DNA of 29,817 bases. It comes from a virus. The position numbers and the translations under genes were made by a program. This document shows positions 26,190 to 29,817 of the stretch, piece by piece. Position 1 is the stretch's first letter; each line of letters begins with the position of its first letter. The stretch covers positions 1 to 29,817 of IMG/VR virus record IMGVR_UViG_3300042553_000242. One strand, given 5' to 3'. The notes under the pieces are model-generated. The model saw only the letters and a program-made list of their open reading frames with translations. It ran no database searches and was not told the origin of the DNA.

Positions 26190-26503
26190 TTGGTGTGGCA
26201 GGCTGGGCGTGGCCTGGCAAGGCTGGGCAGGTCGTGGCCCGGCGCGGCATGGCATGGCAGGCGTGGCGCGGCACGGTATGGCCTGGCGGGGCGTGGCGTG
26301 GCAGGCAGGGCTAGGCTCGGCACGGCTAGGCGGGGCGGGGCGAGGCGCGGCGTGGCAGGCAAGGCGGGGGTAGGCATGGCCAGGCTGGGCAGGGCAGGGC
26401 GAGGCACGGCATGGCGGGGCGTGGCAGGCAGGGCAGGGCTAGGCATGGCTTGGCGTGGCGGGGCGGGGCAGGCAGGGCGGGGCTGGGCAGGGCAGGGCAA
26501 GGT
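26190..26503 (+). repeat. Degenerate GGCNN pentanucleotide tract (about 62 units)
   Basis: A run of about 314 bases made almost entirely of GGC every five bases with two freely varying bases between (for example GGCAT, GGCGT, GGCAG, GGCGG), with occasional four-base slips. It begins ten bases after a stop codon and ends just before the next gene's ribosome site. Both strands are largely free of stops, so long Gly/Arg- or Pro/Ala-rich ORFs cross it; these are shadows. A dense G-run block at 26460-26497 has seven runs of three or more G. The sequence is G-rich on the coding strand. Confidence 0.95.
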
Positions 26504-27048: not shown

Positions 27049-27050
27049 TC

Positions 27051-27143
27051 GTGGCAGGCATGGCAGGGCCGGGCAAGGCTTGGCATGGCGTGGCATGGCG
27101 AGGCTTGGTATGGCAGGCGTGGTAGGGCGTGGCAGGCGGGGCA
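27051..27143 (+). repeat. Second GGCNN pentanucleotide tract (about 18 units)
   Basis: The same degenerate GGC-every-five-bases pattern as at 26190-26503, starting five bases after a stop codon. It is about 93 bases long and also G-rich on the + strand. Together the two tracts frame the gene at 26536-27048. Confidence 0.93.
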
Positions 27144-27311: not shown

Positions 27312-27400
27312 TCCGAACGCACAGGATAACCCAGTGCGAGAAGGAGATTAACAATGACAGAAAACACTAACGAGCACTTGGGTTCATCCGATTGTTCGGC
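27312..27400 (-). repeat. attC-like site A
   Basis: Outer cores CCGAAC (left) and GTTCGGC (right) are complementary. Inner arms GGATAACCCAGTGC and GCACTTGGGTTCATCC pair except for extra T27378 and C27385 in the right arm, six bases apart. The loop (about 36 bases) carries AAGGAG at 27341-27346 and ATG at 27354. Nearly identical to site E. It is the leftmost site, hence the distal end of the array in minus-strand polarity. Confidence 0.85.
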
Positions 27401-27402
27401 GG

Positions 27403-27528
27403 GGTTCTGCGGCGTGTGGGAAACGCTGACAAACGAAGATGCTACCTACCGTCAGCGTAAGTCGTTTCAGTACGTCGCTGGAGGTCAGAACGGTGTGCAA
27501 AAAGCAGGTTCGAATCCTGCCAGAACCA
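27403..27528 (+). ncRNA. tRNA-like element in a non-coding cassette
   Basis: GGTTCTG (27403-27409) pairs perfectly with CAGAACC (27521-27527), a seven-base acceptor-like stem with A as discriminator. A perfect T-arm sits inside: GCAGG, loop TTCGAAT, CCTGC (27504-27520), directly adjoining the acceptor as in tRNA. A possible D-arm GCGT/ACGC with GTGGGAA loop lies at 27412-27426. The total of 125 bases is about 50 too long; an extra hairpin (ACGCTGAC/GTCAGCGT, 27423-27458) competes with the D-arm, and no credible anticodon arm is found. CCA is not encoded. Alternatives are a tRNA 3'-end fragment serving as a phage attP core, or an ORF crossing it (27354-27596), whose sequence is just the T-arm read in frame. 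Confidence 0.4.
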
Positions 27529-27561
27529 TTGAGGAAACGTCTGGAATTGCGAAGATGTCCC

Positions 27562-27650
27562 GACGAACGCCAACCCATCACCCAGCGGCGGGGTGATGGT
27601 TTCCAAGATAGAGCACCCAATCGCCGCTTGGGTGCATGGGTTTGTTATCG
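27562..27650 (-). repeat. attC-like site B
   Basis: Cores GACGAAC (left) and GTTATCG (right). Arms AACCCATCACCCAGCGGCG and CGCCGCTTGGGTGCATGGGTT pair with T27628 and C27635 unpaired, six bases apart, in the right arm. The loop contains GTGATG, whose ATG at 27596 opens the next ORF. An inner GGGTG/CACCC stem can extend the fold. Confidence 0.85.
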
Positions 27651-27949
27651 TGCCAAAAGTTGAATTACCGCAAGAATTGATTGATAAGTTTGAACGCTCT
27701 GGATTTTGCCCGCAAGATACAATCAGGGGCAGGCCAGAAACTGGAACCGCATGGAACACGTTGGAAATCGAGTACGATCCAGGGAGCGAGTCTAGTTATT
27801 CAGTTACGTCGATGTTCTACGTTTCTCACTGGGACGGGAAGACGACCAAAGCCGAACGCCCTTGGGGTCAAATGAGTGGCAAGCACGATGGTGAGTTCAT
27901 TGAGGCAGTTATCTTGTGGTTCCAAAGCATGACACAAGCCAGGTCATGA
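27596..27949 (+). CDS. Cassette-encoded hypothetical protein
   Basis: A 117-residue protein whose ATG lies in the loop of site B; GTG at 27593 is an alternative start. Its first 18 residues (MVSKIEHPIAAWVHGFVI) are encoded by the right arm of the site. The remainder, with ELPQELIDKFERSGF, a Pro/Gly/Thr-rich centre and a beta-rich SSYSVTSMFYVSHWDGK segment, reads as genuine coding sequence. The stop TGA is part of the left core of site C (TGATAAC). No family recognised; cassette ORFs are commonly novel. Confidence 0.55.
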   Translation: MVSKIEHPIAAWVHGFVIVPKVELPQELIDKFERSGFCPQDTIRGRPETGTAWNTLEIEYDPGSESSYSVTSMFYVSHWDGKTTKAERPWGQMSGKHDGEFIEAVILWFQSMTQARS

Positions 27950-28036
27950 TAACGCTCGCGGTAACCGAGTCGCCGCCAAGAGACTTGGGCTTAAGAACTA
28001 GGTGACCGGCGACTTCGGTTCACCGCTTTGTTATCG
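27947..28036 (-). repeat. attC-like site C
   Basis: Cores TGATAAC (left, containing the preceding stop codon) and GTTATCG (right). Arms CGCGGTAACCGAGTCGCCG and CGGCGACTTCGGTTCACCG pair with T28014 and C28021 unpaired, six bases apart. The loop has no start codon. Confidence 0.85.
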
Positions 28037-28045
28037 GTGGATTTT

Positions 28046-28273
28046 ATGGGTACAGCTAGACAGTCTTTGTATCGCATGGGCGCGATGGGCGATCGCGTGG
28101 CAGCAATGCGGAAGGAAATGGAGTTGGCCATCGAACAGGCTTCTGACAGTGTTCACAATTCAGTAGAGTGGTGGGACGACTTTTACACGGAGGGTGGAAA
28201 AACACTGATTGAGAATTTACTGGATCGTCTTGAGCGTATTGCAGCACGGTACGCCGAAGACTTAACCAGATAA
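28046..28273 (+). CDS. Cassette-encoded helical protein (75 aa)
   Basis: A 75-residue protein starting at ATG 28046, nine bases after the right core of site C, behind GGTGG. It is helical and acidic (RVAAMRKEMELAIEQASDSVHNSVEWWDDFYTE, LIENLLDRLERIAARYAEDL). The TAA stop overlaps the left core of site D, so gene and site are fused edge to edge. Function unknown. Confidence 0.55.
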   Translation: MGTARQSLYRMGAMGDRVAAMRKEMELAIEQASDSVHNSVEWWDDFYTEGGKTLIENLLDRLERIAARYAEDLTR

Positions 28274-28357
28274 CGATTGGATTAACCCAGCCGCCGTGGT
28301 TGGGCTTCCATTGCAAAAAGACATTTTCGGCGGCTTGGGTTGAATCCTTTGTTCGTC
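28268..28357 (-). repeat. attC-like site D
   Basis: Cores AGATAAC (left, containing the stop TAA) and GTTCGTC (right). Arms GGATTAACCCAGCCGCCG and CGGCGGCTTGGGTTGAATCC pair with T28335 and G28342 unpaired, six bases apart. It is the only site with G instead of C at the outer bulge. No start codon in the loop. Confidence 0.85.
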
Positions 28358-28373
28358 GTCCTTGAGAGTTGAT

Positions 28374-28757
28374 ATGTCAGACCCAACACTGCTTGCAAGA
28401 CTTAACGATGGTCGTGAATTACCGATACAGCCGTGTAATTGCGGACATTGTAATAACGAATGGTTTATGGCCGCGTTGAGTCCAGAGTGGATGCCGTCGT
28501 ACTGTCCTTACTGCGGCATTAAGTTTGTTCGAAAGACCACTGGAGAAGGTGACGACGAGGAACCAGACAATTTTCTCCCAGCGTCAGGACTTGCGTTGCC
28601 GGTGCAATACGGGGTCAGGCTCGTACTTGCGACTGGAAGCGAGTTTGTCCCGGCGCTGCGGTGGAGTATATGGGATCATGCAGCGGAATACGGTGAGGAT
28701 GAGGTGGATTCTGGCAGAGCTACTGGTTTCTGGGTTTTTGAGGAAAGTGCCGTTTAG
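28374..28757 (+). CDS. Cassette-encoded zinc-ribbon protein (127 aa)
   Basis: A 127-residue protein starting at ATG 28374, 17 bases after the right core of site D, behind GAGAG. CNCGHCNNEW (residues 20-29) and CPYCGIKF about 25 residues later form a zinc ribbon, as in small phage restriction-alleviation-type (Lar-like) or DNA-associated proteins. The second half is beta-rich with a DHAAEYGEDEVDSG stretch. It ends four bases before the left core of site E. Confidence 0.6.
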   Translation: MSDPTLLARLNDGRELPIQPCNCGHCNNEWFMAALSPEWMPSYCPYCGIKFVRKTTGEGDDEEPDNFLPASGLALPVQYGVRLVLATGSEFVPALRWSIWDHAAEYGEDEVDSGRATGFWVFEESAV

Positions 28758-28761
28758 GTAC

Positions 28762-28851
28762 GACGAACGCACAGGATAACCCAGTGCGAGAAAGGAAAGC
28801 AACAATGGCAGAAGACAGTACCGAGCACTTGGGTTCATCCGATTGTTCGTC
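28762..28851 (-). repeat. attC-like site E
   Basis: Cores GACGAAC and GTTCGTC are perfectly complementary. Arms GGATAACCCAGTGC and GCACTTGGGTTCATCC pair with T28829 and C28836 unpaired. The arms equal those of site A, but the loops differ while both keep a ribosome site and ATG (AAAGGAAAG, ATG at 28805). Confidence 0.88.
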
Positions 28852-29080
28852 GGGATTACCGGATGCAAGAGCGGACGGAGTTTGCGTGGATTGTCTCGGC
28901 AAGCAGTCGGTTACTAGAGACGGGAGGTTTTGCTTGGCGTGTTTGCGAAAGCGAATCAACCATGACAATCCAGTCGAGCACAGGAAGCCGCGAATGGCTG
29001 GCATGAGAGGGTATAAGGCGAGAAGTACGCAAACGCTTGGTGGTTCGGCAGAAATGCTGAATGACGGAGACGACGAGTAA
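28805..29080 (+). CDS. Cassette-encoded zinc-ribbon protein with attC-encoded N-terminus
   Basis: A 91-residue protein whose ATG lies in the loop of site E behind AAAGGAAAG (28791-28799). The first 16 residues (MAEDSTEHLGSSDCSS) come from the attC loop and right arm, matching the equivalent peptide of site A (MTENTNEHLGSSDCSA). The rest has CVDC followed 14 residues later by CLAC, a zinc ribbon, then a basic segment. The stop codon is immediately followed by the left core of site F. Function unknown, probably nucleic-acid-binding. Confidence 0.55.
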   Translation: MAEDSTEHLGSSDCSSGLPDARADGVCVDCLGKQSVTRDGRFCLACLRKRINHDNPVEHRKPRMAGMRGYKARSTQTLGGSAEMLNDGDDE

Positions 29081-29171
29081 GACGAACGCTTGGGATCAAT
29101 GGGCAACCGGAGAAAAACTATGACTACAGAAAACGGCCAATCGGTTGCTCCATTGCATCCCATTGTTCACA
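29081..29171 (-). repeat. attC-like site F
   Basis: Cores GACGAAC (left) and GTTCACA (right, the most diverged). Arms TGGGATCAATGGGCAACCG and CGGTTGCTCCATTGCATCCCA pair with T29149 and C29156 unpaired, six bases apart. The loop carries GGAG at 29109-29112 and ATG at 29120. It is the rightmost recognisable site. Confidence 0.82.
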
Positions 29172-29758
29172 TGCCGGTAGCGGTTTTGTGTGTTGCCAGA
29201 AGCAGCATCTACAAGCAGATAGAAGGCATCGAGTGTTACGACGCGAAGCGAGATGCAAGGACATTTAGCGGCGGTATGCCAGTAGTGGCCCATCCGCCAT
29301 GTCGCGCGTGGTCGGCATTTTGTAGCCACCAAGCAAAGCCAGAGCTTGGCGAAAAAGATTTAGCACCAATGTGTGTTGATTGGTTGAAGCAATGTGGTGG
29401 AGTGCTAGAGCACCCAGCGTACTCAAAGCTGTGGGATCATTGCAGATTGCCAAAGCCAGGCGAGCGAATGCGAGACGGAATGTGGTCTACCAGAGTGAGT
29501 CAAGCGTGGTGGGGCGACACGAGATCAAAGCAAACATGGTTGCTGTTTGTGGGCGTTTCTCCAAATGAAATAGAGATACCGTACAGGCTTCATTGCGCAA
29601 GCGGTGATCGAGGAAGGTGGAACACCATGAGCAAGCAGAAGCGAGCGGCAACGCCGCCACTGTTTGCGAATTGGTTAATTGAGGTAGCACGGGCCAGTAG
29701 CATAGCGGTTAATGCTCCGACTCGCTTAGCGGCGAGTAGGCTTTGCGAAGTCAAGTAA
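29120..29758 (+). CDS. Cassette-encoded phage protein, possible cytosine-methyltransferase-like
   Basis: A 212-residue protein with start ATG 29120 inside the loop of site F (GGAG, seven bases ahead); an internal ATG at 29171, on the right core, would start at MPVAVLCVARSS. The body contains VVAHPPCRAWSAF, reminiscent of the PPC motif of cytosine C5-methyltransferases, GGVLEHPAYSKLW, WWGDTRSKQTWLLFVGV and TPPLFANWLIEVAR, which resemble a widespread phage/environmental family usually annotated as unknown or DNA methyltransferase-like. The final 20 residues after VAR look like read-through beyond the usual end. No cofactor-binding motif is clear, so an active methyltransferase is uncertain. Confidence 0.65.
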   Translation: MTTENGQSVAPLHPIVHMPVAVLCVARSSIYKQIEGIECYDAKRDARTFSGGMPVVAHPPCRAWSAFCSHQAKPELGEKDLAPMCVDWLKQCGGVLEHPAYSKLWDHCRLPKPGERMRDGMWSTRVSQAWWGDTRSKQTWLLFVGVSPNEIEIPYRLHCASGDRGRWNTMSKQKRAATPPLFANWLIEVARASSIAVNAPTRLAASRLCEVK

Positions 29759-29817
29759 GGGTTGATCGCCAGAAAGACGACGCGAGGAAACGGGACTACG
29801 CGCCCGTGAGTGCGGTT

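Follow-up and report, generated by a model that had tools for sequence, protein, structure and literature searches.

An integrase-less attC array with inverted genes in a phage probably infecting Planctomycetota

The direction of a gene relative to its attC site is taken as part of the definition of an integron cassette, and the strand choice of the integrase is said to ensure that the gene is expressed. Arrays of attC sites lacking an integrase (CALINs) are already known from the virulent tailed phages TJE1, PH101 and P12002L, and IntI1 was shown in E. coli to act on attC bottom strands from this source (Qi et al. 2023, PMC9892861). The locus studied here resembles these arrays in being an integrase-less attC array in a tailed phage. 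However, the cassettes of TJE1 and PH101 have the canonical gene direction, while P12002L has divergent attC sites, and neither consistently inverted arrays nor translation starts encoded by attC were described there (PMC9892861). An orientation anomaly is also known from the 'reverse' integrons of spirochaetes, but in these it is the integrase gene that is reversed and not the genes against their own attC (PMC9668308). Likewise, the recombination site attI1 carries translation-initiation signals and can provide a cassette gene with its ribosome-binding site; that platform site serves adjacent cassettes deficient in a TIR, whereas in the phage the signals lie in each cassette's own attC, inside the hairpin loop (PMC8876359). 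The closest relatives by site structure are the sedentary chromosomal integrons of Planctomycetota (Roseiconus, Neorhodopirellula, TBK1r and others), which share the attC family as judged by a covariance model, the core motifs, the extrahelical bases and the circle signature described below, but differ in gene direction, in the near absence of starts inside attC, in cassette length and in the presence of IntI. In the open-access literature, to which our search was confined, no description of systematic cassette inversion or of attC-encoded leaders was found. What is new here is thus the attC-borne Shine-Dalgarno (SD) motif and ATG together with the systematic inversion, and not the occurrence of attC arrays in phages as such.

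The stretch of DNA analysed (the window) is a 29.8 kb IMG/VR virus record whose genes include a terminase, a portal, a capsid-protease, RecT and a helicase. Six palindromes lie within its last 2.5 kb, among short plus-strand genes in a run. The sequence-only reading had taken them for integron attC-type sites pointing opposite to their genes. All six, 89–91 bp each, were recovered (Table 1) with the architecture it had described, namely AAC/GTT cores, two bulged bases exactly 6 nt apart in the right arm of the plus strand, and a variable loop. The stems measure 4–7 + 6 + 4–7 bp and the loops 31–37 nt. The core context also fits the minus strand, with TTGTT before the right core in 6/6 sites and AACGC after the left core in 5/6. 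A structural finder that requires AAC, a spacer, a stem interrupted by two single-base bulges with six pairs between them, a loop, the mirror arms and GTT picked out the six palindromes and nothing else in the window. Every one of them is on the minus strand; the plus strand and 20 dinucleotide shuffles gave no site. With the bulges placed on the other arm the finder favours the plus strand, which is the same statement mirrored.

Table 1. Positions of the attC sites and their cargo in the window (R1, covariance model of host attC sites)
Feature	Position	Strand	Basis and remarks
attC S1, leader type; AAC 27316 ... GTT 27396; plus-strand SD and ATG (27354) in loop	27312..27400	-	R1 E=7e-12, finder
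tRNA-like element, cargo of cassette 1	27403..27528	+	7-bp acceptor GGTTCTG/CAGAACC, D-arm-like hairpin, intact T-arm, expanded middle
attC S2	27562..27650	-	R1 E=2e-13
Cassette 2 ORF; start is GTG past the core or loop ATG 27596; homologue in L008 behind a different attC	27650..27949	+	
attC S3	27947..28036	-	R1 E=4e-19
Cassette 3 ORF, 75 aa; TAA stop inside the next left core GATAAC	28046..28273	+	Codon score opposed to attC
attC S4	28268..28357	-	R1 E=6e-19; weak plus shadow, 29 bits
Cassette 4 ORF, 127 aa	28374..28757	+	No Pfam family; codon scoring
attC S5, leader type	28762..28851	-	R1 E=2e-11
Cassette 5 ORF, start within attC S5, leader MAEDSTEHLGSSDC; common to L017 at 97% DNA identity	28805..29080	+	
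attC S6, leader type; same site in L002 before another gene	29081..29171	-	R1 E=1e-18
Gene behind S6, phrog_12600, start within attC, leader MTTENGQSVAPLHPIV; L001 homologue behind a different attC	29120..29758	+	

The covariance model (R1) was made from planctomycete chromosomal attC sites only, from loci collected with a degenerate pattern, and is independent of the phage sites. In its alignment of 60 host sites 99.9% of the cells were paired, with a covariation score of 0.607 against 0.137 after shuffling; the lack of G-T pairs in this alignment is partly selected, because the best-scoring sites were chosen. A search of both strands gave six minus-strand matches with 47–73 bits and E-values from 4e-19 to 2e-11. 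The expectation that matches would be confined to the minus strand held for all six sites, apart from the weak plus-strand shadow at S4. The sites display the R and L boxes, the unpaired spacer and the variable loop of attC, and their R''/L'' arm bears the two extrahelical bases. In agreement with host sites, these bases lie 6 nt apart and were G in 92/97 and A in 96/97 sites. With six sites in 1.9 kb and no intI nearby, the locus is a CALIN; with no IntI found, it is not a complete integron (intI, attI and Pc together).

Array-bearing virus records were gathered by pattern and protein scans of IMG/VR, which gave about 40 records after duplicate removal and 128 sites; related sites and partly overlapping records are included in these counts, which do not represent independent events because the records and attC types are related, and many of the records are fragments. 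The window's portal protein was matched in 8 of the 38 array records tested (29–70% identity) and the phrog_15 terminase family in 9 of 38, and several phage lineages therefore seem to carry the arrays. The window itself is from a tailed phage whose host, assigned by attC similarity alone, is probably among the Planctomycetota. No DNA match to its array was found among 50,697 isolated phage records.

The opposed polarity of genes and sites proved to be general. Gene direction was called by codon scoring, since ORF length alone left many cassettes unclear. By this scoring, for which the model was trained on long ORFs of the loci themselves, 77 cassettes from the viral records were opposed to their attC, none was co-directional and 11 were unclear; these calls rest on the codon statistics of short ORFs. 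The same scoring of planctomycete chromosomal cassettes gave 40 co-directional, 2 opposed and 28 unclear. The canonical form, in which attC lies downstream of a co-directional gene, is thus not that of the phage arrays. As a positive control, phage TJE1 was run through the finder, which assigned its attC to the strand of the preceding gene, orf2. Phage genes flanking the arrays ran opposite to attC in 29 cases and in the same direction in 16, indicating that the inversion is not simply a matter of array position. In one virus record from an isolate genome, L175 (9031–11335), host-type attC sites have the canonical direction; this array stops only a few bases short of the end of the locus and is probably the chromosomal flank of a provirus. 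Contigs labelled Kuenenia, Acidobacteria and Burkholderiaceae (L061, L066, L098) also gave matches to the planctomycete-type attC pattern, and the structural finder located sites in L061 and L066 and none in L098.

With regard to the cargo, all ORFs of the array lie on the plus strand as had been reported; the cassette between S1 and S2, however, seems to hold a tRNA-like RNA and not a protein gene. Pfam and PADLOC assigned no function to the window's cassette proteins, and Rfam gave nothing above threshold for the window array. The genes behind S5 and S6 start inside the hairpin, while those behind S2, S3 and S4 probably start past it.

Starts of the former kind are common in the phage arrays. 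An SD-like motif and an ATG within the site, from which an open frame leads across the right arm and the core to the cargo gene, were present in 54 of 128 phage sites, but in only 1 of 120 host sites and in none of these in the canonical direction. With a stricter criterion the numbers were 39/102 for phage and 0/117 for host. About 40% of the phage sites accordingly encode an in-frame leader peptide of 10–20 residues. The distance from the ATG to the end of the core was 31, 39, 42, 43, 48, 49 or 60, and two of the three reading phases therefore occur (0 and 1 alone). Four gene families (g9, g10, g11 and g27) have kept their phase behind clearly different attC sites, and the window and L002/L003 share the leader MTTENGQSVAPLHPIV in front of unrelated proteins. 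At the 3' end of several genes the TAA stop is supplied by the core, as GATAAC or GCATAAC. The median site-to-site distance of 296 nt in phage arrays (533 nt for the longer host cassettes), compared with a median ORF of 309 nt, leaves almost no spare DNA.

When an integron cassette is circular, the bases just outside its core pair with each other; in an array, the two partners are therefore separated by the gene and not by the hairpin. The outer four core bases were perfectly complementary across the gene in 69 of 88 phage cassettes, whereas shuffled partners gave a mean of 13 and a maximum of 25. Across the site's own hairpin they were complementary in only 27 of 128 sites. Host cassettes behaved alike (51/70 across the gene, 9/120 across the hairpin). 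Within the window, S2 and S4 show no match at all between their own outer flanks, while the right flank of S4 fully matches the left flank of S5 and the right flank of S2 matches the left flank of S3 in 3/4 positions. The units in the window are genuine integron-type cassettes.

A separate matter is which enzyme moves them. No match to the IntI model TIGR02249 was found in the window record and none over the cut-off in 40 array records, an absence that carries little weight because many viral records are fragments. Instead of a host IntI, homologous recombination at near-identical attC sites or a different tyrosine recombinase might now be shuffling genuine attC cassettes. Several sites have identical stems, loops have been swapped between S1-type sites, and some of these viral records without IntI encode other tyrosine recombinases, all of which would suit such shuffling. 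We nevertheless regard it as unlikely, given that cassettes are exchanged despite dissimilar attC sites (most are about 0.6–0.7 identical), that the cores carry the circle signature, and that array-bearing host genomes have IntI, above the curated cut-off in 7 of 10 planctomycete genomes. At five host loci, attC lies on the usual side of IntI.

The position of the crossover was judged from related sites with one neighbouring gene in common. Viral site pairs sharing the right gene and not the left had kept their attC in 12 of 17 cases (identity 0.87–1.0), whereas pairs sharing the left gene and not the right had kept it in 0 of 12. Host sites gave 5/5 and 0/4, respectively. A single extra cassette, placed precisely at the left core, is all that separates the arrays of L018 and L021. 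Because attC travels with the right gene and this indel lies at the left core, the crossover is the canonical one, between the G and the TT of R' on the minus strand, and the gene is the inverted part. The opposite assignment, with mirror-polarity attC sites that cross over between the G and the TT of the right plus-strand core, would make the gene and the attC following it a canonical cassette with only the side of the bulges reversed. It accounts for the 5 of 17 same-gene pairs, L001 and window S6 included, in which the gene was kept and its left attC was not. Still, we hold it to be very improbable: it is at odds with the 12/17 and 0/12 above and with the L018/L021 indel, and host sites, in which the genes are canonical and the bulges on the same side, show the same behaviour relative to the hairpin. 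In the five exceptions the attC was swapped and the break is at the right core, so some exchange departs from a simple left-core rule; rare recombination of the other strand, or homologous exchange, would give such swaps. Pairs with the same gene, a different attC and a break at the right core are L005/L011 (g9, g10), L001/window S6, L008/window S2, L017/L135 and L005/L017.

That the palindromes are instead RNA hairpins of a phage operon (e.g. translation enhancers or processing sites), shuffled by ordinary mosaicism without site-specific recombination, is the least credible reading despite the SD and ATG in many loops, which make an additional RNA role likely, since core bases pair across genes and not across hairpins, the host attC model matches the sites, the extrahelical G and A are conserved, and breakpoints fall exactly at cores. 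The sites do not vary only as RNA structures, as the earlier reading had allowed for, but mark cassette turnover between related phages. Their stems are also nearly pure Watson-Crick, with 5 G-T pairs among 1644 in all parsed viral sites and 7 among 2081 in host sites, and covariation restricted to Watson-Crick pairs suggests a DNA hairpin.

Taken together, we estimate a probability of roughly 0.8 that the window carries an integrase-less array (CALIN) of genuine integron-type cassettes, with their genes inverted, in a tailed phage probably infecting Planctomycetota. In plus-strand coordinates the proposed cassette unit begins at the C of one left core (cut between AA and C), includes attC and the gene behind it, and closes with the AA of the left core that follows. 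The sequences show a canonical attC on the minus strand and an inverted gene whose 5' end adjoins R''. As attC is on the minus strand, the recombinogenic bottom strand is the plus strand, that is, the coding strand of the cargo. Exchange takes place mainly at the left core as the normal R' crossover; a host integron integrase would act in trans on the folded plus strand.

It follows from the inversion that the hairpin sits at the start of the gene, where it can supply a ribosome-binding site, a start codon and a leader. Inversion may be kept since each cassette would thereby become translationally self-sufficient wherever it is inserted in a phage operon, the best-supported of the reasons considered. 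It might also place the recombinogenic strand on the lagging-strand template with the genes still co-directional with transcription. The bottom strand of attC is the better substrate for recombination by a factor of about 1000, with a preference for the lagging-strand template (PMC8946536, PMC5371416), and 25 of 30 sedentary chromosomal integrons are in the other replication configuration (PMC5371416). GC skew is positive on the plus strand at 18–27 kb of the window (one contig), and the plus strand may therefore be the lagging-strand template, the configuration favouring attC folding. A founder site inserted in reverse would likewise select for reverse cassettes; the direction of arrays relative to neighbouring phage genes is mixed, however.

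The phage-type S1 attC arm was absent, within two mismatches, from 392 Planctomycetota genomes, and phage cassette DNA has hardly any match to the host loci examined, in line with a separate phage cassette pool. We give even odds to the wider proposal that Planctomycetota phages maintain their own inverted-cassette pool apart from that of their hosts, with attC serving at the same time as a portable translation-initiation module and recombination swapping genes, at times with in-frame leaders, via a host integrase acting on the coding strand. The data suggest that phages built their own version of the integron cassette. A cassette class that breaks the rule of gene direction, so far found in phages and with its start moved into the recombination site, would mean that viruses have re-engineered integron logic. 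Such arrays would be a source of inverted cassettes and would put the lagging-strand hypothesis of attC folding to a natural test; such cassettes would also open a route for gene trade between hosts and phages. Tools that assume the canonical direction may misread inverted arrays.

L021 is a close relative of the window, with 82–86% DNA identity in the backbone and an array content that differs throughout. In the more distant L022, the contig stops 0.7 kb past the corresponding conserved gene, and that segment is free of sites. A search for an empty site of the L002 cassette returned L002 itself as the sole record. Degenerate GGCAN/GGCGN repeats with a period of about 5, up to 300 bp long, lie on both sides of the phrog_15946 gene of the window (26197–26502 and 27050–27143); they are also present in L021 (8615–8775 and 9325–9600) and L022 (5063–5290), retained despite sequence drift.

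ARAGORN found no tRNA in the window, and neither ARAGORN nor Rfam recognises members of the family to which the cargo of cassette 1 belongs. These tRNA-like elements, 98–165 nt long, keep the acceptor, D-like and T arms intact, and their anticodon region is expanded and non-canonical. Their acceptor stems differ by compensatory changes. A second element in the window (about 29693–29817) is cut by the contig end and is whole in L001 (1685–1829). Others lie in L003 (4608–4711 and 5031–5157), L006 (257–354), L007 (295–394), L009 (3554–3674), L014 (5271–5387) and L115 (3065–3181).
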